Source: a virus. From it: a stretch of DNA of 45,522 bases. The notes under the pieces are model-generated. The model was given only the letters and a program-made list of their open reading frames with translations. It was not told the DNA's origin and did no database searches. The position numbers and the translations under genes are program-made. Shown here piece by piece: positions 22,793 to 42,466 of this stretch (the first letter of the stretch is position 1; every line of letters begins with the position of its first letter). The stretch spans positions 1-45,522 of IMG/VR virus record IMGVR_UViG_3300048588_000260; one strand, given 5' to 3'.

Positions 22793-22821
22793 TTGACACA
22801 GCCCTCGGTTCGGTATATTCT
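22793..22821 (+). promoter_or_regulatory. Strong sigma70-like promoter of the amidoligase gene, predicted leaderless
   Basis: TTGACA (22793-22798), 17-bp spacer, TATTCT (22816-22821). The ATG follows after exactly 6 nt, so transcription should start at the A of the start codon. A GGTATATTCTACC motif (22812-22824) overlaps the -10, the right place for a repressor. Confidence 0.75.
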
Positions 22822-22827
22822 ACCTAC

Positions 22828-23682
22828 ATGAGCATCAACAACACATTCGGAATCGAAATCGAGATGGCGTCCATCCCGGACGGTTACAGCGCCCTGATTA
22901 ATGCGCTCCGCGCCAAGGGCGTCAGCGCCAGCTATGAGAGCTACAACCACAGCACGCGCGCTCACTGGAAGCTCACCACCGACGCAAGCTGCGGATGGGA
23001 ATTGGTCAGCCCGGTCCTGACAATCGGCGAAGACGCCTTCGAGGAAGTCCGTAAGGTCTGCGAGGCCCTGAATGAGTGCCGCGTGGTGGTCAATCGAAAG
23101 TGCGGCCTGCACGTTCACATCGGTGCCGCTCACTTCAATATCCGGGCGCTCAAGAACTTCGCCAAGAACTATCTGAAGTTCGAGGACTTTTTCGATGCGA
23201 TCATGCCCGAGAGCCGCCGCCGCGATAACAACCGCTTTATCGCCAGCCACCGCTCACGCTTCGGCGCTTACGATTCCGAGGCCGCCATCGCGACCGGGTT
23301 CAACCGGATCACCGAAGCCACCGACCTCCGCGCCCTGCAGATCGTCATGCAGCCGAACCGGGAAGCCTACTACGCAGTGAGCGAGCCGAGCCGGTACTAC
23401 AAGCTGAACCTCACCGCGTTCGGACGCTATCAGACGGTGGAATTCCGCCAGCACTCAGGGACGACCGACTACCGCAAAATCCGCAACTGGGTCCTTCTGC
23501 TGAACGAGTTCACTCTGAAGTCGGCAGTCGGCGCGCCGCGCCCCCGGAAAGCGACCAGCCGGGTTTCCACCGGCGAAGCGATGAGCCGCTTTTTCACCAT
23601 GTTCGGCATCGCCAAGGAACAGCGCGATTTCTACCGCGCCCGCTTCGCCGAACTGCACCGCAACCCACAGGCCCAGGGCTAA
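22828..23682 (+). CDS. Putative amidoligase (COOH-NH2 ligase, glutamine synthetase-like fold)
   Basis: 284 aa from ATG 22828; an upstream in-frame extension to 22726 is rejected because it crosses the promoter. Family signatures are FGIEIEM at 7-13, a Cys-Gly-Trp-Glu segment (TTDASCGWELVSP) at 50-62, CGLHVHIG at 92-99 and VEFRQHSGT near 212-220. These match the predicted amidoligase family, which is thought to join amino groups to carboxylates using ATP. Two cyclotransferase-like genes follow, as reported for this family in comparative genomics. The substrate (peptide tag, cell wall or metabolite) is unknown. Confidence 0.85.
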   Translation: MSINNTFGIEIEMASIPDGYSALINALRAKGVSASYESYNHSTRAHWKLTTDASCGWELVSPVLTIGEDAFEEVRKVCEALNECRVVVNRKCGLHVHIGAAHFNIRALKNFAKNYLKFEDFFDAIMPESRRRDNNRFIASHRSRFGAYDSEAAIATGFNRITEATDLRALQIVMQPNREAYYAVSEPSRYYKLNLTAFGRYQTVEFRQHSGTTDYRKIRNWVLLLNEFTLKSAVGAPRPRKATSRVSTGEAMSRFFTMFGIAKEQRDFYRARFAELHRNPQAQG

Positions 23683-23688
23683 TCGCCC

Positions 23689-23717
23689 TTGACCTCATCA
23701 AGCCGATACGGTACAAT
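23689..23717 (+). promoter_or_regulatory. Sigma70-like promoter of the cyclotransferase genes with GGTA-N5-TACC motif
   Basis: TTGACC (23689-23694), 17-bp spacer, TACAAT (23712-23717). GGTACAATATACC (23710-23722) covers the -10. The mRNA leader would be about 15 nt with a purine-rich ribosome site before ATG 23739. Confidence 0.75.
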
Positions 23718-23738
23718 ATACCCAAGAGAGCGAGAACC

Positions 23739-24170
23739 ATGAGCAACCAAAGCAACCCCACCGCGAACCGCGAACTAGTCTTCGTCTACGGAACCCTGAT
23801 GCGGGGATTCGGTAATCACCGCGTCATGCGCTACGCCCAGGGCGAGCTGCAGGCGCGCGCCACGGTCCCAGGCGAGCTGATCCACCTGGGCGGATACCCG
23901 GGATTCCGGCGCGCCCCCAAGGGCACGGTGCACGGTGAGATTTATGCGGTACCGCCCAGCGGATTCGGCCCGCTCGATTCCCTTGAGGGCGTCCCGAACC
24001 TTTACACCCGCGAGCGCATCCAGGCGACCACCGAAGACGGCCAAACGGTCGAATGCTGGATCTACGTCTACGCCCGAGACGGACGCTACGCCTACGGCGT
24101 CCTGGAGAGCGGCGACTGGCGCGACGAAGAGGTTAATATGCTCATCCGGAGCGTCCAGGAGATCGACTGA
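23739..24170 (+). CDS. Gamma-glutamylcyclotransferase-like protein (AIG2-like) 1
   Basis: 143 aa. Residues 14-23 VFVYGTLMRG form the substrate-binding loop of the GGCT/AIG2 fold; LDSLEGVPNLYTRERI contains the conserved acidic position (Glu) near 82 and WIYVYA follows. Such enzymes release 5-oxoproline from gamma-glutamyl amines or peptides. Right after an amidoligase it could reverse or edit the isopeptide product. Overlaps the next gene by 1 nt (TGATG). Confidence 0.85.
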   Translation: MSNQSNPTANRELVFVYGTLMRGFGNHRVMRYAQGELQARATVPGELIHLGGYPGFRRAPKGTVHGEIYAVPPSGFGPLDSLEGVPNLYTRERIQATTEDGQTVECWIYVYARDGRYAYGVLESGDWRDEEVNMLIRSVQEID

Positions 24171-24649
24171 TGGCCCGGTATTACATGGCCTACGGGTCCA
24201 ACCTGAACAAGGCCCAGATGCGCTTTCGGTGCCCCCAGGCGCGCCCCTATCGGGCGCTCCTGCTCTCCGACTTCCGGCTCGACTTCCGCACGGTCGCCGA
24301 CATCACCTACAAGCAGGGCGCGAATATTGCCATCGCCCTCTACCAGGTCACGGCGGCCGACGAGCGCCAGCTCGACCGCTTCGAGGGTTTTCCCTGGAAG
24401 TATGGCAAGCGCGAATTCCCGTTTGAAATCACGAACGCCGACGGCAGCACGGAGCGCGTCGACGGGTTCTTCTACTACATGAACGGCGGCGCGATAGCGC
24501 CCCCACGGCGCGAATATGCCGAGCGAATCGGCCGAGGGTATCAGGACTGGGGCCTCCCGGTCGATCTACTCCAGCGCGCCATCAAGCGCTCGCAGCGCGC
24601 CATCTACAAGTCAGCCAGAAAGGAACTTCAATGGCAGGGCCTGATCTAA
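24170..24649 (+). CDS. Gamma-glutamylcyclotransferase-like protein 2
   Basis: 159 aa. YMAYGSNLN at 5-13 is the diagnostic GGCT loop, and LDRFEGFPWKYGKREF near 66-82 holds the expected catalytic Glu. It differs clearly from its neighbour, so the pair is not a recent duplication. Together with the amidoligase it suggests synthesis and turnover of a gamma-glutamyl-type linkage. Confidence 0.85.
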   Translation: MARYYMAYGSNLNKAQMRFRCPQARPYRALLLSDFRLDFRTVADITYKQGANIAIALYQVTAADERQLDRFEGFPWKYGKREFPFEITNADGSTERVDGFFYYMNGGAIAPPRREYAERIGRGYQDWGLPVDLLQRAIKRSQRAIYKSARKELQWQGLI

Positions 24650-24855
24650 CCCCAGCGGAGCGCATTCGCGCCACCATGAAAGCTCACCGGCTCACCTACG
24701 AGGCGGTGAGCCAGCTCCTTCACGTCAGCAAGCATACGGTTGCCGCGTGGCTCAAGCCGACGACCACCAAGAGTCACAACCCCGCGCCTATGATGGCCGC
24801 GGAACTGCTCGAACTGAAGGCCGGGCAGGCCCCAGAATCTGGTCGGCTTCCGTGA
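24631..24855 (+). CDS. Small helix-turn-helix DNA-binding protein
   Basis: 74 aa, ATG 24631 with AGGAA upstream, overlapping the previous gene by 19 nt. AERIRATMKAHRLTYEAVSQ then LLHVSKHTVAAWLKP (about 9-43) is an XRE-like HTH. It is the last gene of the cassette and a candidate regulator of the GGTA-N5-TACC sites upstream. Its last 68 bp overlap the end of the convergent HAD gene. Confidence 0.65.
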   Translation: MAGPDLTPAERIRATMKAHRLTYEAVSQLLHVSKHTVAAWLKPTTTKSHNPAPMMAAELLELKAGQAPESGRLP

Positions 24856-25255
24856 TCGCGGCCTGCAGCTCGCTGGCCGTGATGGCGTCAATGCCGAACT
24901 CGCGATACATGGCCCGCGTCTGCGGGTTGCTCTCCAGCGCGAAGTAGGCCGCATCGCGGCCATAGACGGGAAACACGAGGCGCTCCAGCATGGCGCGCTT
25001 TGCCAGAGGCGGCCGGAGGCCGTCTTCGTTGAAGTGCGCTTCGCCAGGCCTCCAGCCGGTTTTCAGCAGCAGGCTTTCGAGCGTCTGCTGCCGGTACTTG
25101 GCCGGGCGCGCGGTCAGCATGATGACGTTCCTATCGCGGAGCAAGTCCACCAGCCAGGCCCGGTAGACCTCCTGCTCAATCTGGCGCGAGAACGGCGAAA
25201 CCTTCGTAGTGCTGTTCTCCACCAGGGTGTAGTTGAGGTCCAAGAGGATAATCAC
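24788..25255 (-). CDS. HAD-superfamily-like protein with altered motif I (DxN)
   Basis: 155 aa, GTG start at 25255 in a GTGA overlap. Motif I is LLDLNYTLVEN: the nucleophile D6 is present, but the usual second Asp is Asn (N8). Motif II T48 lies in VIMLTARP, and KRAMLERLVF could supply the motif III Lys. HAD enzymes are mostly phosphatases; the D-to-N change suggests reduced or different activity. Last gene of the ParB operon. Confidence 0.65.
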   Translation of the reverse strand: MIILLDLNYTLVENSTTKVSPFSRQIEQEVYRAWLVDLLRDRNVIMLTARPAKYRQQTLESLLLKTGWRPGEAHFNEDGLRPPLAKRAMLERLVFPVYGRDAAYFALESNPQTRAMYREFGIDAITASELQAAITEADQILGPARPSVRAVPRPS

Positions 25256-26760
25256 AGCTCGACTCCCAAACGCCGGCCGAAGGCGTCCAGCGCCTCGGCA
25301 ACCAGGCCCATCCTTGTGCCGTCAGGATACGGCAAATCGAACTCGAACACCAGCGCCTCCCGGAGCGCCCGCAGGTCCACCGGTTTCGGCCGCGCGCATA
25401 CCGCGTTCAGGTTCACGCTGTTCTTCGTGATCTTGACCGACTCGAAGCGCTCGGAGAGCAGCGCGTGGAACTCGCTTGGCTGGTGGTACTTCTGCACCTT
25501 GGGCGCGGCCTGGAAGTCGCCGAGGGTGATGTTGGGCTCGTAGGCGAGCTGGAAGCCGATGTAACTGCGGGAGCGTTCCGCCAGATACTCCCCGCCGCGC
25601 GCGCTGCGTATGCTGGCGTGATCGGCGTGCATCGTGACGGAATAGAGCTTGGTGGAAGGCGCGCACAGCGCGGAGCAGATCGCCAGGATCTTGCGGCGGT
25701 CCTCCATGAACGGGACCGAGTTGAAGACCGAGGCGATAAAAACCGAGGTGTACTGCACGTTGCGCCGGACATCGTCGAGGAAGGCGCGCGCAATCTCGAC
25801 GCTGGCTCGCTTGTCGATTTCGCTCCCGGCTCCCAGGTGGTAGGGCTCGAAGGCGGAAACGTGGACGCCCACCGAGCGAAGAATTTTGGTTTCCGTCAAG
25901 TGGCCCGCGCCGAAGTCCACCACGGAATTGCCGTAAATCTTCTTCCACCGCGCCAGGTTGGCCGGGGTGGTCATGTCGAACTCTTTTGCGTTCTCGGACA
26001 GCAGGAACGTGAAGCCGCGGCCGAGGCCTTTTCGCTGCAGCCGGGCGCGGCGGAATGAGTTGTACCGAAGCGTGTCCCGGTACCGAGTGTGCAGGTCGAA
26101 GTCCATCGACAGCAGGTTCAGCATCGCGTCCGACAGCCGCGCCTCATCCTCGCTCACCCACACAACCTCGACCGTGGAGGCCTTCTGCGTCGCCAGCATC
26201 TGCAGGCGGCCGAGGCCGTTCACGCAACGGTAGTCGCGCGTCGCGACGATGGGCATTTGCACGCCCTTGTTGCGGAGGGTCTTGGAGATGTTGGAGGCGT
26301 ACTCCACCCAGCGGCCGCTGTTCGCTTTCAAGAACGGGGCGATAGGCTCCACGCTCGGGCGCATGCAGCGCCAGAAGGCCTCCGAGTCCACCGCAAGGTC
26401 GGGCAGGTGGCGCGATAGGGCGTCGAGGTTGACGGCCTCCAGCGCTTCCGTTAGGGACTGCGGGGTGGAGCTGTTGCTCATGTCGTTCGTTCCCCGGTTG
26501 AACACGATATTCAGGGCCTTCCGCTGCTCCAGGCTCATCGGCTTCACGCGAGAAACCGGGATCCGCTTGCAGCCCATTCTGGAGGCAACCAGGTGACGCT
26601 GGTGGCCGGAAAGGATCTCGCCATCGGGGTCCGCATAGATTGGCAGCAGGAAGCCCAGCTTCCGCAACGAAAGCTCAATGAGGTCCAGCCGCCGCGGATC
26701 GGATTCGCGCGGGTTGTAGGTGGACGGCCGGACGCTGTCGATAGGAACAAGCTCAATCAC
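25252..26760 (-). CDS. ParB-like protein fused to a methyltransferase-like domain
   Basis: 502 aa, GTG start at 26760 with GGAGG upstream. Residues 1-65 form a ParB/sulfiredoxin-type domain (NPRESDPRRLDLIE, then EILSGHQRHLVA). A second, shorter ParB-like segment near 170-190 has MPIVATRDYRCVNGLGRLQ. From about 285 a Rossmann-type region begins with VVDFGAGHLTETK and continues FEPYHL, like a SAM-binding motif. Such ParB-like proteins commonly accompany phage DNA modification enzymes and nucleases. It may recognise or modify DNA; no target-base catalytic motif is evident. Confidence 0.7.
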   Translation of the reverse strand: MIELVPIDSVRPSTYNPRESDPRRLDLIELSLRKLGFLLPIYADPDGEILSGHQRHLVASRMGCKRIPVSRVKPMSLEQRKALNIVFNRGTNDMSNSSTPQSLTEALEAVNLDALSRHLPDLAVDSEAFWRCMRPSVEPIAPFLKANSGRWVEYASNISKTLRNKGVQMPIVATRDYRCVNGLGRLQMLATQKASTVEVVWVSEDEARLSDAMLNLLSMDFDLHTRYRDTLRYNSFRRARLQRKGLGRGFTFLLSENAKEFDMTTPANLARWKKIYGNSVVDFGAGHLTETKILRSVGVHVSAFEPYHLGAGSEIDKRASVEIARAFLDDVRRNVQYTSVFIASVFNSVPFMEDRRKILAICSALCAPSTKLYSVTMHADHASIRSARGGEYLAERSRSYIGFQLAYEPNITLGDFQAAPKVQKYHQPSEFHALLSERFESVKITKNSVNLNAVCARPKPVDLRALREALVFEFDLPYPDGTRMGLVAEALDAFGRRLGVEL

Positions 26761-27344
26761 AGCCCGAGCCTCCTGCGGATTTCGCCGACAACCGAAGGCG
26801 CGTCAAAGCCGACCTCTTGGCGGATCCGCTCTTCCCAGAGCAGGAATTCGTTTCGCTTGATCTGGCCGCGATAGCTGCCGACGGTGAAAGACGTATCGCC
26901 AGCCTCATCCTCTTCGGGCGTATCGGCCGGCAGGTCGGGGTCGTCTTCCGCGGCCGAGATGTTTTGCAGCTCGGAATCGCTGAACCCGGTAAGCGCCAGG
27001 TCAAACTCCAGGCCCCTGAGGTCTTCGAACTCCAGCGCCAGCAGGTCGAAATCCCAATCCGTTTCTTGGTTGGTGCGATTGTCGGTCAGGCGGTAGGCCT
27101 TCACTTGCGCGGGCGTCAGGTCGCGGGCGACATGCACCGGCACCTGGGCGACGCCGAGCTTCTGGGCGGCAAGCAGCCGGGTGTGCCCGGCGATCACCAC
27201 TCCCTGGGGGTCCACCACGATAGGTTGGCGCCAGCCGAATTCCTTCAGTGAGGCGGCGACCTTGTCGATGGCCGGTTGCCCGATCTTGCGCGCGTTGCGC
27301 GCGTAGGGCGTGATGCGTTCGATGTTCCACTTTTCAATTTTCAT
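26757..27344 (-). CDS. ParB/Srx-like DNA-binding or nuclease protein
   Basis: 195 aa from ATG 27344 (MKIEKWNIERITPYARNARK). The N-terminal 90 residues are a clear ParB-like domain with IVVDPQGVVIAGHTRLLAAQKLG (GHTR motif) and LTDNRTNQETDWD. The C-terminal half is acidic and then basic-helical. It has no Shine-Dalgarno site and starts only 6 nt after the T run of an intrinsic terminator, so expression must depend on read-through. No ParA partner is present, so plasmid-type partition is unlikely. Confidence 0.75.
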   Translation of the reverse strand: MKIEKWNIERITPYARNARKIGQPAIDKVAASLKEFGWRQPIVVDPQGVVIAGHTRLLAAQKLGVAQVPVHVARDLTPAQVKAYRLTDNRTNQETDWDFDLLALEFEDLRGLEFDLALTGFSDSELQNISAAEDDPDLPADTPEEDEAGDTSFTVGSYRGQIKRNEFLLWEERIRQEVGFDAPSVVGEIRRRLGL

Positions 27345-27350
27345 GGGAAG

Positions 27351-27382
27351 AAAAAAAGCCGCCCGGGCGTCCACCGGGCGGC
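27351..27382 (-). terminator. Intrinsic terminator directly in front of the ParB-like gene
   Basis: On the minus strand GCCGCCCGG and CCGGGCGGC form a 9-bp GC stem with a 7-nt loop followed by seven T. It ends the transcript of the small gene upstream. The ParB start codon lies 6 nt after the T run, with no room for a promoter between. Confidence 0.85.
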
Positions 27383-27386
27383 ACAC

Positions 27387-27506
27387 AAGGAAAGGATTGG
27401 CTTGGGTTTGAGATGGGGAGAGCGCTGCCTCTGCACTCCCCCCGAAGCGCCCGCCAGGAGATCGAACGAAACGGGCGCTGCCTCGTAGGCTCAGTGTCGC
27501 ATCGCC
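27387..27506 (-). other. Structured 3' region between small gene and terminator
   Basis: No gene. If transcribed from the minus promoter near 28007 it would form an 8-bp stem (AGCGCCCG/CGGGCGCT, 27446-27453 with 27472-27479), a second stem (GGGGAG/CTCCCC, 27415-27420 with 27436-27441) and then the terminator. A direct repeat GCGCTGCCTC is also present. This could be a 3' UTR or a small RNA. Confidence 0.3.
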
Positions 27507-27884
27507 TTAGGTTGGAACCGTGGCAATTGCCGGGCGTGGCGCTGAGCCTGCGGAGACAAGGCGTCGCGGAATCGAATGGGTTAAAGCTCGCAAGATCGGG
27601 CTCCAGGCATGAGTGCGGACGTGCTCAAACGAGCTGGGCCCGGAGCGCGTGAAGGTGACCGAGTCCTCGGCCTTCGGCAGCTTCCGGGCGCGGAGCCGCT
27701 TCAGCGCGGCGTCGAATTCCAGGCTCCGGCCTGGCAGGACCTCGACGGCGCGAATCCGGCGTCGGCCGAGAAACCGGACGATGCCCTGCCGCTGCAGGCC
27801 GCGCGCCTCGTCGTAGTGCAGGCGCTCGACCCACTTCGGCCGGCTCAGGTCGATCACTCGGAACCTTTTGTTCTGAAGACTCAT
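27507..27884 (-). CDS. Small basic protein of unknown function
   Basis: 125 aa from ATG 27884 (MSLQNKRFRVIDLSRPKWVE), with GGGAG about 12 nt upstream. The first 70 residues look protein-like with a repeated Arg/Val pattern; the C-terminal 40 residues are compositionally odd. It follows a minus-strand promoter and operator near 28007-28026 and precedes the terminator at 27351-27382. An overlapping frame from 27960 is less convincing. Confidence 0.5.
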   Translation of the reverse strand: MSLQNKRFRVIDLSRPKWVERLHYDEARGLQRQGIVRFLGRRRIRAVEVLPGRSLEFDAALKRLRARKLPKAEDSVTFTRSGPSSFEHVRTHAWSPILRALTHSIPRRLVSAGSAPRPAIATVPT

Positions 27885-27982
27885 GCGAATACAGCTCTCC
27901 CGTCATGAGTGCGGGAGTTTTTCGAGGGAAACTGCGGAAAAACCTGGAACCCGGCGACACCCGCTCGCAGTCGCTTTCCTCG

Positions 27983-28012
27983 ACGTTATCCGGGCGCTGG
28001 CCGTGGTGTCAA
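27983..28012 (-). promoter_or_regulatory. Minus-strand promoter for the 27,884 gene
   Basis: Minus strand TTGACA (28012-28007), 18-bp spacer, TAACGT (27988-27983). A GGCAA-N4-TTGCC palindrome abuts the -35 on its upstream side. Confidence 0.55.
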
Positions 28013-28026
28013 GGCAAATCGTTGCC
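28013..28026. promoter_or_regulatory. GGCAA-N4-TTGCC operator, copy 1
   Basis: GGCAAATCGTTGCC. The 20 bp starting GTCAAGGCAA here and at 36741 are identical except for two centre bases, and both lie immediately upstream of a minus-strand TTGAC -35 box. A shared regulator, perhaps the small HTH protein at 36478-36693, is likely. Confidence 0.6.
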
Positions 28027-28054
28027 AGCCATTCCTGACGCCATGGCAACCGCG

Positions 28055-28073
28055 AACTGGCCTAAAACTGGCC
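28055..28073 (+). repeat. Candidate integrase arm sites, left pair
   Basis: Two direct copies of AACTGGCC at 28055-28062 and 28066-28073, 11 bp apart, to the left of the tRNA-Cys core. Two further copies lie on the right side. Spacing and flanking position resemble arm-type sites of tyrosine integrases. Confidence 0.5.
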
Positions 28074-28110
28074 TGCGCGCCGGAACCCATGTAGAATGAG
28101 TGCGGATGCA

Positions 28111-28158
28111 AGGTCTGCAAAACCTCGTACGCCGGTTCGATTCCGGCCCGTGCCTCCA
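28111..28158 (+). other. attP: attP core: 3' part of a tRNA-Cys gene (anticodon GCA)
   Basis: The segment reads as a tRNA from the anticodon arm to the end: loop CTGCAAA with anticodon GCA (28117-28119), variable bases, T arm GCCGG-TTCGATT-CCGGC (28131-28147), acceptor strand CCGTGCC and encoded TCCA. The matching 5' acceptor GGCACGG and D arm are absent, so it is not a working tRNA. Integrating phages often carry such tRNA 3' ends to restore the host gene after insertion. Confidence 0.8.
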
Positions 28159-28292
28159 TCCTTAACCCCTCCAGCTCCCTCTAAGTCCTTTCCTGTCAAT
28201 CCTGCATCCTGGCATCTGGCGACAATGACGCCAGACGCCATTGCGCCAAGGTGACAAGCGACGACACAAGCATCCTCTCGATCCTGGCCTGA

Positions 28293-28335
28293 AACTGGCC
28301 CGGCAACTGGCCCAAACCTGGCTCAGGCCTGGCCC
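28293..28335 (+). repeat. Candidate integrase arm sites, right group
   Basis: AACTGGCC at 28293-28300 and 28305-28312, then related AACCTGGC and CCTGGCCC up to 28335. They mirror the left pair on the other side of the attP core. Confidence 0.5.
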
Positions 28336-28374
28336 GGCGCTCGAAAGTTTTTTCGGGAAATCGGCAATAGGGTA

Positions 28375-28403
28375 TTGCATACCCGTCTCACTAGTGATAC
28401 ATT
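28375..28403 (+). promoter_or_regulatory. Early promoter P1 with ACTAGTGATAC operator, predicted leaderless
   Basis: TTGCAT (28375-28380), 17-bp spacer, TACATT (28398-28403); ATG follows after 6 nt. The spacer and -10 overlap GTCTCACTAGTGATAC (28385-28400), one mismatch from the perfect 16-bp palindrome found at the other early promoters. Confidence 0.75.
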
Positions 28404-28409
28404 AGAAGT

Positions 28410-28607
28410 ATGAGCAAGACAGAAAACATGACGACGAAAATCACGATCAGCTACGACATGCGATTCACGAAGGGGGCCTGCAAGGGCATCGTGATCGCAA
28501 AAAAGGCGACCTTCCGCTGCATGGAAGACGCTAACGCGTTCGCCGACCGTGAAGGGATCGAGCAAGACGACTACGTCAACGAAAACATGAGCGTTGAACT
28601 CCGCTAA
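28410..28607 (+). CDS. Small early protein, unknown function
   Basis: 65 aa. The start ATG 28410 coincides with the expected transcription start of promoter P1, so the message should be leaderless; an internal ATG 7 codons later has no ribosome site either. Pattern is beta-alpha with KITISYDMRF, ending in an acidic tail. First gene of the 28,410-30,078 operon. Confidence 0.6.
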   Translation: MSKTENMTTKITISYDMRFTKGACKGIVIAKKATFRCMEDANAFADREGIEQDDYVNENMSVELR

Positions 28608-28638
28608 GGCGGAGTCCCCCAGCAAGGAGCCAGCAACC

Positions 28639-28974
28639 ATGACCATCGAACGCAAGATTCAATACGCCCAATGGGCGATGGAGAGCCAGGCCGAAAAGAT
28701 CGGCCGGCTGCGTACCGAAATCCTGCAGGCCGTCAGCCGCCTGCACAGCGAGATCCTGGCAGAGTCCAGTCGCGCCGAAGGGGAGATAGACCGGCTGCAG
28801 GGCGAGGCCGAGTTCGTGCGCCGCGTCCAGGAGGTCGTCAACTTTTCAGCCAGCAAGCTAAAGCACCTCTTAGCCCGGGACGCCCGCGAAATCAGCGAAG
28901 CCCAGGCTACCGCGGCGAGTCTGCCGCTCATGCAGGAAATTGCGGCCTTGACCGCGCGCCAGGAGGCAAAATGA
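28639..28974 (+). CDS. Coiled-coil early protein
   Basis: 111 aa from ATG 28639 with AAGGAG upstream. It is almost all helix with heptad spacing (IGRLRTEILQAVSRLHSEIL, then VRRVQEVVNF). No catalytic motif. It overlaps the next start (ATGA). It may act as an adaptor or DNA-metabolism accessory; unknown. Confidence 0.6.
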   Translation: MTIERKIQYAQWAMESQAEKIGRLRTEILQAVSRLHSEILAESSRAEGEIDRLQGEAEFVRRVQEVVNFSASKLKHLLARDAREISEAQATAASLPLMQEIAALTARQEAK

Positions 28975-29270
28975 GCACCCCGCAAGTCCAGCGGCCGCGC
29001 TTCGATCTCGGCCGCGTATTCATCACGCCCGGCGCCAGGGCACTTCTCGGCGGTCCCTTTGTCGCCGAAGTGACCGCGCGGCGCTACATTGCGCGCCACC
29101 TGAAGGAAGATTGGGCCGAGATGGACGAGCACGACCAGCAGGCTAACCGCGACGCCATCGAACGCGGCGAGCGCGTTTTCTCAGCGTTCACCCACCAGGG
29201 TGAGCGCCTCTATGTCATCACCGAAGCCGACCGGGCTTCGACCACCATCCTGCTGCCGGAGGAATACTAG
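28971..29270 (+). CDS. Conserved mobile-element small protein
   Basis: 99 aa. It has FDLGRVFITPGARALLGG near the start, ARHLKEDWAEMDEHDQQAN in the middle and a C-terminal VITEADRASTTILLPEEY. I recognise this layout from small proteins of plasmids and integrative elements, usually of unknown function. ATG 28971 overlaps the upstream gene. Confidence 0.65.
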   Translation: MSTPQVQRPRFDLGRVFITPGARALLGGPFVAEVTARRYIARHLKEDWAEMDEHDQQANRDAIERGERVFSAFTHQGERLYVITEADRASTTILLPEEY

Positions 29271-29272
29271 CC

Positions 29273-29827
29273 ATGGTCGCCCTTGAAACGAAGTACCGCG
29301 AGCTGGCCCGCGAATCGCGCCAGCGCTCCAGGGAGAGCTACGAGCGATCCGATACCGACGGGTTCCTGAGCCAGTGGGCTGGGGACCTCACCGCCCGCAA
29401 GTACGACCTGCAGGCCGACATCGAAGCCGACGGCGGAACCGCATGGTTTCCTCGTCTCGTCACGGTGGACGGCCGGAAGCTGGATGCCAAGATCACCCAG
29501 ACTCGATACGGAGCGTGCTGGATGATCCGACGCGAAGGCCACCCGCCGCAGTTTTGCCCGCTCGCAGTACACTGGCAGGAAGGCGGCAAGGGCCAGGCCG
29601 ACGAATTCGGCTACGACAGCCGCTCGCAGGCCCGCCTCGCCAAGCGAGGATTCCGCCAGATCATGGTCGAGCGCCCGGCAAAGGCCGAGATCGTCGGGAC
29701 CGGGCGCGGATTGTCAGGTAGTGCATGGGCGACCACCATCGAAATCACGAGCCCCTTCGATCTGAAGCTATGGGCGAGGACTCATCCGGAAACGGCGGCG
29801 CGCCTCGGGATTGGCGGGGACCGATGA
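29273..29827 (+). CDS. Hypothetical early protein
   Basis: 184 aa, ATG 29273, 2 nt after the previous stop. The N-terminal 35 residues are charged helix. A mixed alpha/beta core follows with AWFPRLVTVDGRKLDAKI, CWMIRREGHPPQFCPLAVHW and FGYDSRSQARLAKRGFRQI. No family recognised. In the same operon as the preceding small genes. Confidence 0.6.
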   Translation: MVALETKYRELARESRQRSRESYERSDTDGFLSQWAGDLTARKYDLQADIEADGGTAWFPRLVTVDGRKLDAKITQTRYGACWMIRREGHPPQFCPLAVHWQEGGKGQADEFGYDSRSQARLAKRGFRQIMVERPAKAEIVGTGRGLSGSAWATTIEITSPFDLKLWARTHPETAARLGIGGDR

Positions 29828-32245: not shown

Positions 32246-32432
32246 ACAGGCCTCCTTGCAAGCTGCGGATCCGGTCTTCGGCGTGATCGGTGATGGCCTG
32301 CTGGATGCGCTCTCGAATCTGCAGCAACTCCCGGTCTTCGACTAGCCGCACGCGAAGGCCGTCCAGGCCCATGCCGGGAAAGGCCAGCCGGGCGATGGAT
32401 AGCATGATCTCGTCCAGTTCTCGGTTACTCAT
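32235..32432 (-). CDS. Small helical protein
   Basis: 65 aa (MSNRELDEIMLSIARLAF...RVRLVEDRELLQIRERIQQAI). It overlaps both neighbours (8-11 nt), which argues for a real gene in a compact operon. No known motif. Confidence 0.5.
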   Translation of the reverse strand: MSNRELDEIMLSIARLAFPGMGLDGLRVRLVEDRELLQIRERIQQAITDHAEDRIRSLQGGLFAD

Positions 32433-33974: not shown

Positions 33975-34002
33975 CTTGGCCTCCTGCGAGGCCGTCACGG
34001 TG

Positions 34003-36280: not shown

Positions 36281-36300
36281 GGTTCTTGCTCCTGGAGGCC

Positions 36301-36459
36301 TCAGCCTCGGTTTGAAAAGTAGAGCTGCACTGCCAGCCACAGCAGCAGCAGGATTAGTCCGTTATTGGTGGCCTTGGCGCGCCTCAGTTGCTCTCTAAGG
36401 TGCTGGACCATGGCCGTGGACTGGTCAAGGGCGTTGTAGGTGCGATCTGGGTCAAGCAT
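36301..36459 (-). CDS. 52-aa single-pass membrane protein
   Basis: ATG 36459 to TGA 36301-36303. A charged N-terminal helix (LREQLRRAKATNN) leads into GLILLLLWLAVQLYF, a transmembrane segment. It lies between the small HTH gene and the Sak4-like gene and fills the otherwise empty gap. A GAGAG sequence precedes the ATG. Could be a superinfection-exclusion or membrane-tether peptide; unknown. Confidence 0.55.
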   Translation of the reverse strand: MLDPDRTYNALDQSTAMVQHLREQLRRAKATNNGLILLLLWLAVQLYFSNRG

Positions 36460-36477
36460 GGTACTCTCAGGACCACT

Positions 36478-36693
36478 TCAAGCAGCCGTTTGCGCTTGCG
36501 ATTCATCGGGTTCGATGCTGGACTGGGAAGCGACCGCTAAATCCTGGAGGATGGCCCGGGCCTTGTCGGTACGGCCAGCTCTGCGACCGTTTGCGAGCCG
36601 GGAAACGTAGGCCGGAGAAACCTCATGCTTCGTTGCGATCTGGGTCAAAAGGCCCCAGGTCGCTGGCAGGAATTTGGTACGATTATCTGGCAT
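36478..36693 (-). CDS. Small XRE-type regulator (Cro/CI-like)
   Basis: 71 aa from ATG 36693, chosen for GGAAAGG 7 nt upstream (ATG 36696 also possible). LLTQIATKHEVSPAYVSRLANGRR is an HTH with recognition helix near residues 29-38. No peptidase domain. It is the first gene of the leftward early operon and the palindrome GGCAA-N4-TTGCC lies in its promoter, so autoregulation is likely. It may be the lysogeny regulator or a Cro-like partner. Confidence 0.7.
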   Translation of the reverse strand: MPDNRTKFLPATWGLLTQIATKHEVSPAYVSRLANGRRAGRTDKARAILQDLAVASQSSIEPDESQAQTAA

Positions 36694-36716
36694 CATTTTG
36701 CCTTTCCATGCTGCCC

Positions 36717-36745
36717 AGAGTGACAAATTGGCGTCAGGAAGTCAA
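36717..36745 (-). promoter_or_regulatory. Probable promoter of the leftward early operon
   Basis: Minus strand TTGACT (36745-36740), 17-bp spacer, weak -10 CACTCT (36722-36717). The palindrome at 36746-36759 sits directly upstream of the -35, the same geometry as at 28007-28026. A related AAATTGGC half-site is in the spacer. Confidence 0.45.
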
Positions 36746-36759
36746 GGCAATTTGTTGCC
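36746..36759. promoter_or_regulatory. GGCAA-N4-TTGCC operator, copy 2
   Basis: GGCAATTTGTTGCC lies between the divergent HTH (minus) and ribbon-helix-helix (plus) genes, so one bound protein could control both directions. Confidence 0.6.
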
Positions 36760-36773
36760 AAGGACGAGCGAAA

Positions 36774-37067
36774 ATGCAAGAAACCCGAGATCGAATCGCT
36801 ATCCGGCTCACCCGCGAGGAATGGGAAGCGCTCGACGACAAGCGTCACAAGGAGCGCCTCACCTGGCAGGAGCTTGGTGTTAATCTTTTGAGAGACTGGT
36901 ACCAAGGGTCCAGAACCGTTAATCCCAATTTCGCCGTGGAGTGCGAAACTCCCGAAGAGGCTGAGCTGTGCAATGCGCTGCTCGCCTGCTACCGGCGACT
37001 CTCCAAGGCTGGCCGCGCGGTCGCCTCGGAGATGTGGCGGAGTATGTTTCGCGCTCCAGCAGGCTAA
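36774..37067 (+). CDS. Ribbon-helix-helix-like protein
   Basis: 97 aa from ATG 36774 with AAGGA 9 nt upstream; the frame upstream to 36591 crosses the operator and is rejected. RIAIRLTREEWEALDDKRHK, then LTWQELGVNLLRDWYQG fits a strand-helix-helix fold of Arc/CopG type, followed by a helical extension. It may bind one of the palindromic operators. Divergent to the HTH regulator. Confidence 0.6.
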   Translation: MQETRDRIAIRLTREEWEALDDKRHKERLTWQELGVNLLRDWYQGSRTVNPNFAVECETPEEAELCNALLACYRRLSKAGRAVASEMWRSMFRAPAG

Positions 37068-37080
37068 TGGAGTCGCCACG

Positions 37081-37314
37081 ATGAAATGCTCCTGTCGAGC
37101 CGGGTCAGAGACCCAACAAGATCTGACGGTTATTCTGGCAGCGCTGGAGGCGGCAACCGCTACCCTGGCGCTGCCAGACCTTCCCGAGGATGCGCGCGCC
37201 CTGGCCCTACACTCCCAGAGGGTCGCCTCGGCTGAGTACGATCGGCGTCGCCTGGCGTGCGAAGAACTCCCGAATTGCGCGTTCGCTCTTTTCCTCCAGA
37301 ACGCTTCCGCCTAA
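37081..37314 (+). CDS. Small helical early protein
   Basis: 77 aa from ATG 37081 with GGAG 9 nt upstream. A short Cys pair at the N-terminus (CSC) and helices rich in Ala/Leu (LTVILAALEAATATLAL). In tandem with the RHH gene. Unknown function. Confidence 0.5.
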   Translation: MKCSCRAGSETQQDLTVILAALEAATATLALPDLPEDARALALHSQRVASAEYDRRRLACEELPNCAFALFLQNASA

Positions 37315-37349
37315 GGCCTCGCCCAGACGTTCAGCACGGCATTTTCCGG

Positions 37350-37378
37350 TTGCAATCGCGTATAACTAGTGATACGCT
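37350..37378 (+). promoter_or_regulatory. Early promoter P2 with ACTAGTGATAC operator, predicted leaderless
   Basis: TTGCAA (37350-37355), 17-bp spacer, TACGCT (37373-37378), then 6 nt to ATG 37385. Operator GTATAACTAGTGATAC at 37360-37375 (one mismatch to the palindrome). Confidence 0.78.
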
Positions 37379-37384
37379 GAAAGC

Positions 37385-37570
37385 ATGAGCAACCGTACCA
37401 CCACCCCCAACCAACCGAAGCCATTGCGCGGCCTAAAAGTCGGCGACCGCGTCGTGAATCTCGGCGAGCGCGCCACCATCGTAGGATTCCGCGCGGCCGA
37501 TTGCCCGATCCTCGAACGCGCGGGCGAGCGGTGGATCGCTGATCCATCCAAGTGCCGGAGGGTCCGCTGA
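37385..37570 (+). CDS. Small SH3-like early protein
   Basis: 61 aa. LRGLKVGDRVVNLGERATIVGF reads as a small beta-barrel (KOW/SH3-like) domain. The start codon is the predicted transcription start of P2 and no ribosome site exists. It overlaps the next gene (TGATG). Confidence 0.6.
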   Translation: MSNRTTTPNQPKPLRGLKVGDRVVNLGERATIVGFRAADCPILERAGERWIADPSKCRRVR

Positions 37571-37914
37571 TGGGACTTTTCGCGCCTTATACCATCCACT
37601 ACGCCTGGTATCGTGTCGAAGCCTACAACGCGGGCGACGACGACTGTTTCAAGTACACCTTCGACCTCTACGACGGCGGGAATTTCGCCCAGGAGATCGA
37701 CTGGAATCCGTATTCGAGAATGACCGAGCAAGACCTGGAGCGCTGGCTGCTGCTCGGCCGGCCGGAGCGAATCGGCATCGGTCCACTTGACCGGCGCCAG
37801 CTCGACCAGATCGAAGCGGCCGCGATAGAGCGCTCGGCCGCCTTCGCCGCCCTCATCGGCACCGTGCAGGCGCTCACCAAAGCAATGGAGGAAGCATGTT
37901 TACCTGGATCGTAA
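37570..37914 (+). CDS. Hypothetical early protein
   Basis: 114 aa from ATG 37570 in a stop-start overlap. Beta-rich N-terminal part with many Tyr and Trp residues (YTIHYAWYRVEAYNAG), then helical C-terminal half (DRRQLDQIEAAAIERSAAF). No recognised family. Confidence 0.55.
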   Translation: MGLFAPYTIHYAWYRVEAYNAGDDDCFKYTFDLYDGGNFAQEIDWNPYSRMTEQDLERWLLLGRPERIGIGPLDRRQLDQIEAAAIERSAAFAALIGTVQALTKAMEEACLPGS

Positions 37915-38093
37915 TGCGCGCCGGGGACCGGCGCGAGGCGTTCCTGTTTGAAGGTAAGCCGGGCGTGCCGACGCACGCCGACCGTCTGCAAACCCTAGAG
38001 GATGTCGCGGCACACCTGCTCGCGCGATGCCCGGAGCCGCCTCCTGCCCAAACTGGCAAGGAGGGAGACAGCAAGGTGGGAGACAAACTATGA
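37896..38093 (+). CDS. Small hypothetical early protein
   Basis: 65 aa, ATG 37896 with AGGAA upstream, overlapping the previous gene by 19 nt and the next by 4. Begins MFTWIVMRAGDRREAFLFEG, ends in a polar tail. Unknown. Confidence 0.5.
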   Translation: MFTWIVMRAGDRREAFLFEGKPGVPTHADRLQTLEDVAAHLLARCPEPPPAQTGKEGDSKVGDKL

Positions 38094-38284
38094 TGAGCAT
38101 GATGCCCCAAATCGCCGTTCGCGTGACCGAAGCGGAGCGCCGCAAGATCCACATGCAGGCCATCCAGCAGGGCCTGTCCGTGTCCAACTACACCCGCAAG
38201 CTGTGGGGGTTGGAGCCGGTCGAAACCGGAGGCGCGGCGCACAAACGAAACGTGACCGCGAAGGCCCGGAAAGTGAAGCGCTAG
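38090..38284 (+). CDS. Ribbon-helix-helix-like DNA-binding protein
   Basis: 64 aa; ATG 38090 overlaps the previous stop and GGGAG is upstream (later Met codons are also possible). PQIAVRVTEAERRKIHMQAI, then GLSVSNYTRKLWGL, is a typical RHH pattern; the tail is basic. The gene ends in a terminator and is followed by a palindromic operator, so it is a candidate ligand for ACTAGT-type sites. Confidence 0.65.
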   Translation: MMSMMPQIAVRVTEAERRKIHMQAIQQGLSVSNYTRKLWGLEPVETGGAAHKRNVTAKARKVKR

Positions 38285-38294
38285 GCGCTTTTTT
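38276..38294 (+). terminator. Intrinsic terminator after the RHH gene
   Basis: AAGCGC-TAG-GCGCTT followed by further T residues. The stop codon TAG forms the loop, so gene end and terminator are merged. Confidence 0.75.
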
Positions 38295-38297
38295 CTA

Positions 38298-38326
38298 TTG
38301 CATTCGCGTATCACTAGTGATACAGT
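38298..38326 (+). promoter_or_regulatory. Early promoter P3 with perfect palindromic operator
   Basis: TTGCAT (38298-38303), 17-bp spacer, TACAGT (38321-38326). GTATCACTAGTGATAC at 38308-38323 is a perfect 16-bp palindrome. Here the ATG is 17 nt after the -10 and an AAAGGAG site is present, so this message has a short leader. Confidence 0.8.
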
Positions 38327-38343
38327 ATTCAAAGGAGCCAAAC

Positions 38344-38898
38344 ATGCCTACTGCTGAAACTGAACTACAGACCATCACCCAGGATGTCGATGTCTCGATT
38401 CCTGAATCGATCTTTGAATCCATCCTCGAATCCGGCGTCCAGCCCGCTTCACCCTCAGAGCGCAACCGCCGCTCATCGCCCACCTATCGCATGATGCGCC
38501 CGGGCGAGTTCACGGTGACACTGGACGAAAGCTCACCTTGCTACGCGCAAGGGTTGACAACGTTCAAGTACGAAATCCGCCTCGAATCGCGGAAGCTCGA
38601 CGCCCGGGGTTTCATCGTCGATAGCTTCGCCGTTCCGGCCGTCTTCGACCGTTACCAATCCGGGGTGTGGAGCGGCCCCTGCGAGGCGCTGGCAACCGAC
38701 GCCGCGCGTGACCTGATCGACCAGAACCCGAGCCTGACTTTCATCCAGGTCACGGTGCGGACGCCGAACGGTACCGAGATCGGTGTCGAATGGCGACGCG
38801 GCGACCTTCGCCCGAACCGCCGCATGCAGCAGGTCCAGGCCCAAGCGGCCACATGGCGACCAGGCCACTCCGGCTGCATGGGGGTGCCACGTGGATAG
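38344..38898 (+). CDS. Hypothetical early protein
   Basis: 184 aa from ATG 38344 with AAAGGAG upstream. A Ser/Glu-rich N-terminus, then a beta-alpha core (FTVTLDESSPCYAQGLTTFK, DARGFIVDSFAVPAVFD, FIQVTVRTPNGTEIGVEW). The core outline faintly recalls the QueD/6-PTPS fold, but the zinc-binding His residues are not there, so no enzyme is assigned. Confidence 0.6.
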   Translation: MPTAETELQTITQDVDVSIPESIFESILESGVQPASPSERNRRSSPTYRMMRPGEFTVTLDESSPCYAQGLTTFKYEIRLESRKLDARGFIVDSFAVPAVFDRYQSGVWSGPCEALATDAARDLIDQNPSLTFIQVTVRTPNGTEIGVEWRRGDLRPNRRMQQVQAQAATWRPGHSGCMGVPRG

Positions 38899-39571
38899 GT
38901 CCAAGCTCATTGAGCGCGTTCGCCGCGCCCTGAACCTCAGCAAGAGCAGCAACGCCCATGAGGCTGCTCTTGCGCTCTCCATCGCTCACCGGCTGATGCA
39001 GGAGCACCGCATCGCGCTGCATGAAGTGAGCGACGCCGACAGCCGGGAGGCCTTCGGCCGCCGCGAGTGGACGTTTGCGCGCTTCCGTATGCCGCCAGTG
39101 TGGGTGATCGCCTTCGCGGCCGAGGTCTGCAAACCGCTCGGCGTGGTCGTCTCACGCGACCGCCACATGGTTAACCGCAGGCAGGTCAGCGTCACGATTC
39201 GCCTGAATGGCCGGCCGGAGGCAACCGAGATCGCCGCCTTTTACCTCGACCAGCTCCTTGAGCATCTCTACCCGCTCGCGCTGAAGGCCTTCAACCCTAA
39301 CGGGTGGATCACCCGGAACAACTTCGTCACCAGCTTTTTCGCCGGTGCCGGTGTCGTGATCCGCCATCGCCTCGAAGAGGAACTAAACCCGCAAGCCCAG
39401 CAGGCCCAGGCCTTGATGCGAGTGGACGCCGAGGCTGTGCGGAAGTGGCTCATGCAGGATGAGGGGGTCACGACCCAACGCCTTCGGGGCTCGCGATTGG
39501 ATGGCCGCGCCTACAGCGCTGGCGCGAGAGCGGGCGCGGCTGCTCCGCTACACAAGGGGGTCAGCTCATGA
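38891..39571 (+). CDS. DUF2786 protein
   Basis: 226 aa with GTG start 38891 overlapping the previous gene. The N-terminal 40 residues (IERVRRALNLSKSSNAHEAA, then AHRLMQEHRI) are the DUF2786 signature. The following part (FRMPPVWVIAFAAEVCKPLG, RPEATEIAAFYLDQLLEHL) is the usual extension in phage and plasmid members. Function in the family is unknown; often near DNA metabolism genes. Confidence 0.8.
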   Translation: MDRSKLIERVRRALNLSKSSNAHEAALALSIAHRLMQEHRIALHEVSDADSREAFGRREWTFARFRMPPVWVIAFAAEVCKPLGVVVSRDRHMVNRRQVSVTIRLNGRPEATEIAAFYLDQLLEHLYPLALKAFNPNGWITRNNFVTSFFAGAGVVIRHRLEEELNPQAQQAQALMRVDAEAVRKWLMQDEGVTTQRLRGSRLDGRAYSAGARAGAAAPLHKGVSS

Positions 39572-39774
39572 CGATGCCCGGAGAGCGCCAGGCGACCTGG
39601 TTCGGGTGCAAGGTCTGCATGAAGCGATGGATCGCCCTTTATCTGCCGATGCCCGTGAAGCTGGCCACCAAAATCATGCGCTCGGCGCATTGCCCGGAGT
39701 GCGGCGCGGACTCGACCCAGGCCGTGCTGGTGACGGACCCCGCGGAATGGGACCGGCAAGGCGGCCATGCTTGA
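39568..39774 (+). CDS. Small zinc-ribbon protein
   Basis: 68 aa, ATGA overlap. Two Cys pairs, CKVC (14-17) and CPEC (42-45), form a zinc-ribbon arrangement separated by 24 residues containing basic and aromatic residues. Likely nucleic-acid or protein binding. Confidence 0.6.
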   Translation: MTMPGERQATWFGCKVCMKRWIALYLPMPVKLATKIMRSAHCPECGADSTQAVLVTDPAEWDRQGGHA

Positions 39775-40291
39775 ATTCCCGTACTACTGGCGCGTCAGGG
39801 CGCGACTCCCGGAGCGATTCGGTAAGCCCTGCCGCGTCCTGATCCGAGGCGGCTCCATGAACTCGGCGCTGGTGGAGTTCCAAGACGGGGCTCGATTCGT
39901 TACCAGCCGCAACTATCTACGAAGGAGGCGTATGGCAGCAGATCCAATCGCGGTCGCCCGGTGCATCGCGGCGAACGCTTATCAGAGGGCCGATGAGGCC
40001 CAGCTCCAGGCCGGAATCCAGGGCGCGCTCGAAGCGGCCGGTTACGTCTTTGAGCGAGAGTTCCGGCTGAGCGCCAAGGACCGGGTCGATTTCCTCGTCG
40101 GCCGCGTTGCCGTCGAGGTCAAGGTCCAGGGCTCGACGCCAGCCGTCCGGCGCCAGCTCGCGCGGTACGCGGCGTCCTCGAATGTGGATGCCGTCATTCT
40201 CGTGACCACCAAGAGCAAGCACGCCATGGAGGCTGAGAGCCTCAACGGGAAACCGTTGATTGTCGTGAAGGTGAGAGGGGGAGAGTTTTGA
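39767..40291 (+). CDS. Two-domain protein: small beta domain plus restriction-endonuclease-like domain
   Basis: 174 aa. Residues 15-55 (FGKPCRVLIRGGSMNSALVE and VTSRNYLRR) form a small beta module that recurs at 42887-43162. From M56 a PD-(D/E)xK nuclease-like fold follows: E97 region, RVDFLVGRVAVEVKV with D108, E117 and K119. An internal ATG (39932) with a strong GGAGG site could produce the nuclease domain alone. Probably a junction or structure-specific DNA nuclease; target unknown. Confidence 0.7.
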   Translation: MLEFPYYWRVRARLPERFGKPCRVLIRGGSMNSALVEFQDGARFVTSRNYLRRRRMAADPIAVARCIAANAYQRADEAQLQAGIQGALEAAGYVFEREFRLSAKDRVDFLVGRVAVEVKVQGSTPAVRRQLARYAASSNVDAVILVTTKSKHAMEAESLNGKPLIVVKVRGGEF

Positions 40292-42015
40292 GCGCCAAGA
40301 ATGGAATCGTTTCTTTCGACCAGCGCGCCCGGCAGTGGGTGATCGAAGCCGCGCCGCACATCGCCATGCGCGTCAAGCGCGTATTCGCGAAGGCCGACAA
40401 GCACCGCACCGGCAAGATCCGGCTCTCGGATTCGGCCGAGGTCGCGGCCGACCTGCAGTGGTTCTTGCAGCGGTACCCGATGGAGGTTCTCGACAAGCCA
40501 TACCTGGAGCGCGCCGCTTCCGCCTACCATGAGCGCCGGTCCTTCATTGAGTCGATGCTCGACAACCAGGTCGAACCGCAGCCGTTCGACGTCGCCATTG
40601 AGCCACGCAAGTACCAGAGCATTGCGGCCGCCATCCTGCTCGCGCAAGGCCGGCTGCTGCTGGCCGACGATCTCGGGCTCGGCAAAACGGCCTCGGCCAT
40701 CCTGACGTTGACAGACCCCAGGACGCGCCCGGCCGTGGTGGTGACTCTCACCCACCTGCAGCGTCAGTGGGCCCACGAGATCGCGCGTTTCGCGCCCCAG
40801 CTCCGCGTCCACATCTGCAAGACCTTCGCCGCCTACGACATCACGGCGGGCCTCAACTCGAACGGCCAGATTCCGCTCATTGCGGCCTTTCCAGACGTTA
40901 TCATCCTGAACTACCACAAGCTCGCCGGATGGGCCGAGACGCTGGCCAAGGTGGCCAAGTCGGTCATCTACGACGAATGCCAGGAGCTACGTCTGGAAGG
41001 GTCCGCCAAGTACGACGCGGCGCGCGTGTTGAGCCGGGCCGCGAAGTTCCGCATGGGCCTCAGCGCGACGCCGTTCTACAACTACGGCGGGGAGTTCTTC
41101 ACGGTGAATGAGTGCATCGCCCCGGGCGCGCTGGGATCTAAGGATGAATTCATCCGCGAGTGGTGTGTCAGCGCCTACGGCGACAAACCGAAGATCAAGA
41201 ACCCGCAGGCCTTCGGGGCCTTCGTCCGCGAAGCCGGAATCATGCTTCGCCGCACCCGCGCCGAGGTTCAGCGCGAACTGCCGGAGGTCCAGAAGATCGT
41301 CCATTACGTGGACAGTGACGCGAAGGCCTTCGCAAAGATCGAAGGCAATGCGGCGCGCCTGGCCGAGCTCATCTTGGCGACCGTGGAGCAGGAGAAGGGC
41401 CAGCGCATGAGGGCGTCTGGTGAGCTGGACATGATGCTACGCCAGGCGACTGGTGTCGCGAAAGCGCCCTATGTGGCCGAGTTTGTGCGAATGCTGGTCG
41501 AGTCCGGGGAAAAGGTCGTGCTGTTCGGATGGCACCGCGCCGTCTACGACATCTGGATGGAGGCCCTGAAAGATCTTCGGCCTGCGCTTTACACCGGATC
41601 GGAGTCTCCCGCGGCAAAGGATGAGGCCAAGCGCCGCTTCGTCTCCGGCGATACGTCGCTGCTTATCATCTCGCTGCGCTCCGGCGCGGGGCTGGACGGC
41701 CTGCAGCAGGTCGCCAGAGTAGGCGTGTTCGGTGAGCTGGACTGGAGCCCTGGCGTCCATGAGCAGTGTCTCGGGCGCATCCACCGCGACGGCCAGAAGA
41801 ACTCGGTCATGGCCTACTATCTTGTCGCCGAGGATGGATCAGACCCAATCATCATGGAAGCGCTCGGATTGAAGCGCGCGCAAATCGAGGGCGTGCGGAA
41901 CCTCGCCACCGGCGACGACCTGTTCGAGCGGCTCGATACCTCGCCAGACAGCATCAGGAAGCTGGCCGAGACCTACCTGCAGCGCAAGCAGGCCCCGGCA
42001 AAAAAAAGCGCCTGA
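40288..42015 (+). CDS. SNF2-type superfamily 2 helicase
   Basis: 575 aa. TTG 40288 overlaps the previous stop (TTGA) and has GGAG upstream. Walker A DDLGLGKT at 127-134, motif II DECQ at 229-232 (instead of DEAH), SAT at 259-261, and the C-terminal RecA-like lobe with VVLFGWHRAVYD, SLRSGAGLDGLQQV and CLGRIHRDGQ (motif VI). Phage members act in replication start or recombination. Its stop lies in a terminator. Confidence 0.9.
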   Translation: MSAKNGIVSFDQRARQWVIEAAPHIAMRVKRVFAKADKHRTGKIRLSDSAEVAADLQWFLQRYPMEVLDKPYLERAASAYHERRSFIESMLDNQVEPQPFDVAIEPRKYQSIAAAILLAQGRLLLADDLGLGKTASAILTLTDPRTRPAVVVTLTHLQRQWAHEIARFAPQLRVHICKTFAAYDITAGLNSNGQIPLIAAFPDVIILNYHKLAGWAETLAKVAKSVIYDECQELRLEGSAKYDAARVLSRAAKFRMGLSATPFYNYGGEFFTVNECIAPGALGSKDEFIREWCVSAYGDKPKIKNPQAFGAFVREAGIMLRRTRAEVQRELPEVQKIVHYVDSDAKAFAKIEGNAARLAELILATVEQEKGQRMRASGELDMMLRQATGVAKAPYVAEFVRMLVESGEKVVLFGWHRAVYDIWMEALKDLRPALYTGSESPAAKDEAKRRFVSGDTSLLIISLRSGAGLDGLQQVARVGVFGELDWSPGVHEQCLGRIHRDGQKNSVMAYYLVAEDGSDPIIMEALGLKRAQIEGVRNLATGDDLFERLDTSPDSIRKLAETYLQRKQAPAKKSA

Positions 42016-42028
42016 CCGCGCTTTTTTT
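42001..42028 (+). terminator. Intrinsic terminator after the helicase gene
   Basis: AAAAAAAGCG and CGCTTTTTTT pair around an 8-nt loop that contains the helicase stop codon; the T run ends the message. The A-rich 5' arm gives a partly bidirectional element. Confidence 0.8.
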
Positions 42029-42029
42029 G

Positions 42030-42058
42030 TTGAAGTCTTGTATCACTAGTGATACGCT
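42030..42058 (+). promoter_or_regulatory. Early promoter P4 with perfect palindromic operator, predicted leaderless
   Basis: TTGAAG (42030-42035), 17-bp spacer, TACGCT (42053-42058), then 6 nt to ATG 42065. GTATCACTAGTGATAC at 42040-42055. The promoter begins directly after the helicase terminator. Confidence 0.8.
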
Positions 42059-42064
42059 CTAAAT

Positions 42065-42466
42065 ATGACAACCGCCCAATCGGAAACGAACACCATGAGC
42101 ACCACCGACACAACCGCCGCCGCCGCCATCGTCGAGGTCCGCAACGGGATCGAAAGCGCCATCGCCAGCCACAAAGACCGCCTCACCAGACTCGGCCGAG
42201 TGATTCTCGGCCAGGGCCACATCGTCTGCATAGAAGACGAAACCGGCATCGTCTGCACTACCCGAGGCACGCGCCCCACTGGCCCGGATCTGATCGACGT
42301 GCCCCACTACTCCCTGCAGGATGCGATCACGGTCTGCGATGCCTACAACCGCATTCCGGGCGTCGAGTTCCGCTTCCGCGTTCTGCATGTCGCCCGATGG
42401 CATGAGGTCCGCATCGCCGAACTGGAAGACCTGCGCGCCCTGCTCCCGGAGGTCCCGAATGTCTAA
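42065..42466 (+). CDS. Hypothetical early protein
   Basis: 133 aa from the predicted transcription start of P4. A Thr/Ala-rich N-terminus, then helix-strand core (AIVEVRNGIESAIASHKDRL, RVILGQGHIVCIEDETGIVC). An internal Met at residue 11 lacks a ribosome site. Overlaps the next gene by 8 nt. Unknown. Confidence 0.55.
   Translation: MTTAQSETNTMSTTDTTAAAAIVEVRNGIESAIASHKDRLTRLGRVILGQGHIVCIEDETGIVCTTRGTRPTGPDLIDVPHYSLQDAITVCDAYNRIPGVEFRFRVLHVARWHEVRIAELEDLRALLPEVPNV

Follow-up and report, generated by a model that had tools for sequence, protein, structure and literature searches.

Four predicted leaderless genes sharing one promoter geometry in a probably temperate phage

Four genes of an environmental virus sequence have their ATG at an identical and very short distance from a -10 hexamer, which raises the question of whether they are transcribed as leaderless mRNAs and, if so, how they are controlled and how this form arose. 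The sequence, IMG/VR virus record IMGVR_UViG_3300048588_000260 (45,522 bases, 64% GC, analysed as a whole and hereafter called the window), encodes an integrase together with replication and recombination genes, and its TerL is ~55% identical to those of the Pseudomonas phages AAT-1 and PaMx28/74 and of the Xanthomonas phage DoCa5. Because of these genes and this likeness, the phage is probably temperate. A near-identity search of the phage collection with the window retrieved no near relative, and both the Rfam and the tRNA scans were empty.

Promoter geometry and translation starts

The four genes share a single element, TTGnnn, a 17-bp spacer, TAnnnT, exactly 6 nt and ATG, as the first-pass annotation had reported. 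Two other promoters of the same types, P38344 and P23739, are predicted to give very short leaders with Shine-Dalgarno sites.

22793–22830, plus strand: promoter P22828; TTGACA (22793–22798), 17-bp spacer, TATTCT (22816–22821), 6 nt, ATG at 22828; predicted leaderless
28375–28412, plus strand: promoter P28410; TTGCAT (28375–28380), TACATT (28398–28403), 6 nt, ATG at 28410; predicted leaderless
37350–37387, plus strand: promoter P37385; TTGCAA, TACGCT (37373–37378), 6 nt, ATG at 37385; predicted leaderless
42030–42067, plus strand: promoter P42065; TTGAAG (42030–42035), TACGCT (42053–42058), 6 nt, ATG at 42065; predicted leaderless
38298–38346, plus strand: promoter P38344; TTGCAT (38298–38303), TACAGT (38321–38326), gap of 17 nt, AAAGGAG, predicted 11-nt leader AGGAGCCAAAC
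23689–23741, plus strand: promoter P23739; TTGACC, 17-bp spacer, TACAAT within a copy of operator B (see below); gap of 21 nt, predicted 15-nt leader

The junctions are exact (TATTCT-ACCTAC-ATG at 22828, TACATT-AGAAGT-ATG at 28410, TACGCT-GAAAGC-ATG at 37385 and TACGCT-CTAAAT-ATG at 42065). When both strands of the whole window were scanned for promoters placed 0–20 nt (-10 to ATG) before every ATG-initiated ORF of at least 40 aa, six promoter/ATG pairs were found, four of them with a gap of 6, namely these four genes. The other two were 38344, which has a gap of 17 and the ribosome site already attributed to this fifth promoter, and 21258 (gap 14), a match that lies opposite the minus-strand TerL gene and is probably due to chance. 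The gap-6 arrangement would be expected at 0.04 sites per window under a first-order Markov model (two or more such sites never occurred in 100 runs) and at 0.03 under a second-order one (one site in 10 of 300 runs, two in none). The clear -35 formerly ascribed to each promoter holds for 22828 (TTGACA; 10 of 12 consensus positions matched overall) but not for the other three, which match 7 of 12 positions each and are omitted by a generic strict promoter scanner; they are called because of a repeated operator, here named A, and their fixed geometry, not because of their hexamers.

On the non-template strand, the start site favoured by RNA polymerase is a purine (+1) lying 7 bp after the -10 element and preceded by a pyrimidine (-1) (PMC5730371). 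All four genes have the A of their ATG at +7 from the -10, preceded by C, T, C and T at -1, and the start codon thus sits at the canonical start-site distance. The reported lack of Shine-Dalgarno sites is borne out: among the 58 starts listed, the three operator-A starts (-0.2, -0.2, and -0.5 kcal/mol) pair more weakly than any other, and the energy at 22828 (-3.0 kcal/mol) is close to the random median of -3.2. Most other starts in the window have energies of -5 to -13 kcal/mol, indicating that this phage otherwise relies on Shine-Dalgarno sites. The 5' ends are also unstructured, the first 40 nt of the four genes folding at 0, 0, -2.0, and -2.6 kcal/mol; of random 40-mers, only 1.9% fold at or above -2.6 kcal/mol, as do 4 among 47 other genes.

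The genes placed behind these promoters are as follows.

22828–23682, plus strand: amidoligase gene (PF12224), with its first codon at the predicted mRNA 5' end
23739–24170 and 24170–24649, plus strand: GGACT-family genes driven by P23739
28410–28607, plus strand: 65-aa ORFan heading an operon whose later genes have Shine-Dalgarno sites
37385–37570, plus strand: 61-aa ORFan heading an operon that ends in a ribbon-helix-helix (RHH) gene
42065–42466, plus strand: 133-aa ORFan, predicted leaderless first gene

Searches with the ORFan leaderless proteins (tblastn) found no relatives. For the amidoligase, 11 homologues begin a few residues before a conserved FGIEIE motif, as in the window, and all 11 have Shine-Dalgarno leaders. 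Leaderlessness is therefore not conserved with this gene, and at 22828 the -10 box stands in the position that the Shine-Dalgarno site occupies in the homologues. The succession of an amidoligase and two GGACT (gamma-glutamyl cyclotransferase-like) genes at 22828–24649 echoes an amidoligase-GGACT pairing that recurs in several distant phage contigs (L077–L088), often near ParB-like genes.

Since the start distance, the -1 pyrimidine, the lack of Shine-Dalgarno sites, the unstructured ends and a gap shared with lambda cI and PY54 cro all agree, leaderless transcription of the four genes is the best reading and, in our judgement, very probably correct. The earlier prediction of leaderless messages is in this way partly supported, with start sites and leaderless translation that we infer from the DNA. 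It is rather improbable that transcription starts elsewhere, at upstream promoters or a shifted site, to produce short leaders or initiation at internal codons. The weak operator-A hexamers would suit such starts, as would the pyrimidine-rich discriminator of 22828, a type of sequence that tends to shift the start downstream (PMC5730371). However, none of the internal in-frame ATGs of the four genes has a good Shine-Dalgarno site, the only credible alternative start with one being a late GTG at codon 28 of 28410, and the amidoligase start is conserved. A terminator-like repeat before the 38344 promoter and a GCGC/T-run repeat, seen by eye, before 42065 also argue against read-through at these two places.

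Operators and a candidate repressor

Two palindromes, operator A (TATCACTAGTGATA) and operator B (GGTAtnnnATACC), recur on or beside these promoters, and a third is found elsewhere in the window.

28386–28399, unstranded: operator A copy TCTCACTAGTGATA, from the spacer to the -10 of P28410
37361–37374, unstranded: operator A copy TATAACTAGTGATA, at P37385
38309–38322, unstranded: exact copy of operator A, at P38344
42041–42054, unstranded: exact copy of operator A, at P42065
22780–22792, unstranded: operator B copy GGTATTTTATACC, directly upstream of the P22828 -35
22812–22824, unstranded: operator B copy GGTATATTCTACC, over the P22828 -10
23710–23722, unstranded: operator B copy GGTACAATATACC, containing the P23739 -10 region
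28371–28383, unstranded: operator B copy GGTATTGCATACC, overlapping the P28410 -35
28013–28026 and 36746–36759: third palindrome GGCAAnnnnTTGCC, adjoining TTGACA/TTGACT on the minus strand
38090–38284, plus strand: 64-aa RHH protein (Pfam NikA-like, above cut-off), candidate repressor of operator A

The repetition of these operators at several promoters exceeds chance (four copies of A in the window versus 0.11 expected). Each copy of A lies in the promoter spacer, its last bases beginning the -10, and the promoter of 28410 carries both operators. The promoters had been described as one family, which is true of 28410, 37385, 42065 and the one with its -35 at 38298, all sharing operator A, but not of 22828, which belongs with operator B. 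Terminator-like inverted repeats with T runs (38275–38322 and 42000–42054) adjoin operator-A promoters, forming compact terminator-promoter-operator-start junctions. A scan of viral contigs for GTATCACTAGTGATAC gave seven matches, all judged to be chance, as they occur in low-GC contigs and without promoter context.

The gene of the 64-aa RHH protein is in the operon of one operator-A promoter and directly before another. A scan of bacterial genomes for TTG-N8-TATCACTAGTGATAC yielded 10 matches, roughly as many as chance would give when 18 fixed positions are sought in 257 billion bases, but five of them immediately precede small RHH-like antitoxin genes, with the -10 at the same place. These five sites (L174, L177, L178, L179, and L181) represent at least two antitoxin families; the downstream genes of L174 and L179 encode ParE-family toxins and those of the other three look similar by eye. 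RHH antitoxin-toxin operons preceded by this operator are present in Holosporaceae, alphaproteobacterial, other proteobacterial, and deltaproteobacterial genomes. In addition, the RHH protein Omega has converging WATCACW heptads as its target (PMC9499535), and operator A is made up of two of these. The operator shared with RHH antitoxin operons, the Omega heptads and the position of the 38090–38284 gene make it likely that operator A is bound by an RHH protein, the product of this gene being the first candidate. A second RHH-looking protein (36774–37067) was recognised by eye, without a convincing Pfam hit. Searches for relatives of the RHH protein in viral contigs and plasmids, and of 38344 in viral contigs, found none; PDB sequence searches with the RHH proteins returned nothing, and a fold search with the low-confidence model of the 38090–38284 product gave matches that were not significant.

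A classical helix-turn-helix (HTH) repressor, such as the 72-aa product of 36478–36696 or some other host or phage protein, seems somewhat unlikely to be the ligand of operator A. Temperate phages normally use HTH repressors, and this small HTH-like gene is divergent with 36774. Nevertheless, the palindrome near it, at 36746, is the different sequence GGCAAnnnnTTGCC, whose other copy (28013) is upstream of 27507–27884, and operator A is the one that precedes RHH antitoxin genes elsewhere and matches the Omega site.

Returning to RHH control, the four leaderless genes would be transcribed from sigma70-type promoters starting at the A of the ATG, and ribosomes would recognise their mRNAs by the 5'-terminal AUG. 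The three leaderless operator-A promoters and P38344 would constitute one repressor-controlled set in which operator A, filling the spacer and providing the first -10 bases, lets a bound repressor exclude RNA polymerase; the RHH product of 38090–38284 may thus repress its own operon. The promoter of 22828 would belong to a second regulon, that of operator B. We infer both the identity of the repressor and the direction of regulation, and regard this combined reading of a leaderless set, operator A under RHH control, and 22828 in the operator B regulon as probable.

Selection or shared descent

Selection of the leaderless form, as had been suggested, is plausible in view of the gap of 6 reached under two unrelated operator classes and of the unstructured 5' ends, but the gap at the operator-A genes could be shared by descent. 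It is possible, and we put it forward tentatively, that copies of one operator-promoter-ATG cassette arose by duplication inside the phage and that leaderlessness came along with their compactness instead of being selected gene by gene. Besides the operator, all four operator-A sites have TTGCA-like -35s in common, the -35 regions of 37385 and 38344 are identical at 10 of 11 positions, and all six junctions are compact, including those of 38344 and 23739 with their predicted leaders of 11 and 15 nt. Against this, the copies show little relationship in their flanks, in the 10 nt after the operator (2–6 identical positions out of 10) or in the 5' coding sequences, 22828 has the same gap with a different operator, 38344 has the same operator with a different gap, and the unstructured 5' ends of all four genes suggest selection. 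With largely unrelated flanks and post-operator sequences, the operator-A cassette is not a recent duplication as a whole; the gap in its three leaderless genes may be inherited in part. The operator-A trio beside its sister P38344, with a minimal Shine-Dalgarno leader, offers a natural experiment on leader loss.

A stronger proposal is that, in this phage, the leading genes of several operons have been switched to the leaderless form under two independent operators, so that one repressor set controls genes with a shared 5'-AUG translation mode. We consider this unlikely; if true, such a mode could be of advantage in certain translation states of the host.

Spacing histograms pooled over the helicase, TerL, and amidoligase loci, which are distant and partial, showed no clear peak at 6, and when words recurring before the ATGs of relatives were sought de novo, mostly Shine-Dalgarno and coding repeats came out. 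Two distant relatives contain divergent pairs of short genes with ATGs 7–8 nt after the -10 (L053:542–632 and L055:336–426), the former with a palindrome, ATGGCGTATCGCCAT. They are probable leaderless immunity switches, reminiscent of the PY54 arrangement.

Comparison with known systems

Leaderless phage genes are known, although they are usually described singly and at repressor genes, whereas four are predicted here, three of them on one operator. A close parallel is lambda PRM-cI (TAGATT-TAACGT-ATG), with the same 6-nt gap between its -10 and ATGAGCA, operators that overlap the promoter, and no Shine-Dalgarno site; it serves a single autoregulated repressor gene, in contrast with four genes in the window, none of which encodes a recognisable repressor. 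In PY54, the cI and cro mRNAs are leaderless by 5' RACE (PMC4488713), and cro has the same 6-nt gap (CATAAT-AAATGT-ATG), giving two leaderless regulatory genes in one phage. Both are within one immunity region, whereas the set in the window involves two operator families and extends over ~19 kb. Another leaderless regulator, proven by RACE and N-terminal sequencing (PMC8630535), is PaaR2, from a cryptic prophage of E. coli O157:H7; it is a single regulator gene at an immunity-type switch. Many leaderless mRNAs in one phage, as predicted here, are found among the middle and late transcripts of the Thermus phage phiYS40 (PMC3594737), where the host is Thermus and the class is set by phage timing, in contrast to a shared operator in sigma70-type promoters. 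Finally, the RHH antitoxin-ParE operons have operator A between the -35 and -10, as in the window, but, unlike the leaderless genes, they possess Shine-Dalgarno leaders and are presumably autoregulated by the antitoxin; no ParE-like toxin was noticed in the neighbourhood of the window RHH gene. Toxin-antitoxin operons and a phage would thus have in common one operator sequence linked with RHH repressors. The four-gene set recalls the lambda repressor gene on the scale of several operons, and its novelty is modest: a predicted leaderless set in a phage that otherwise uses Shine-Dalgarno starts, linked to an operator that an RHH protein probably binds.
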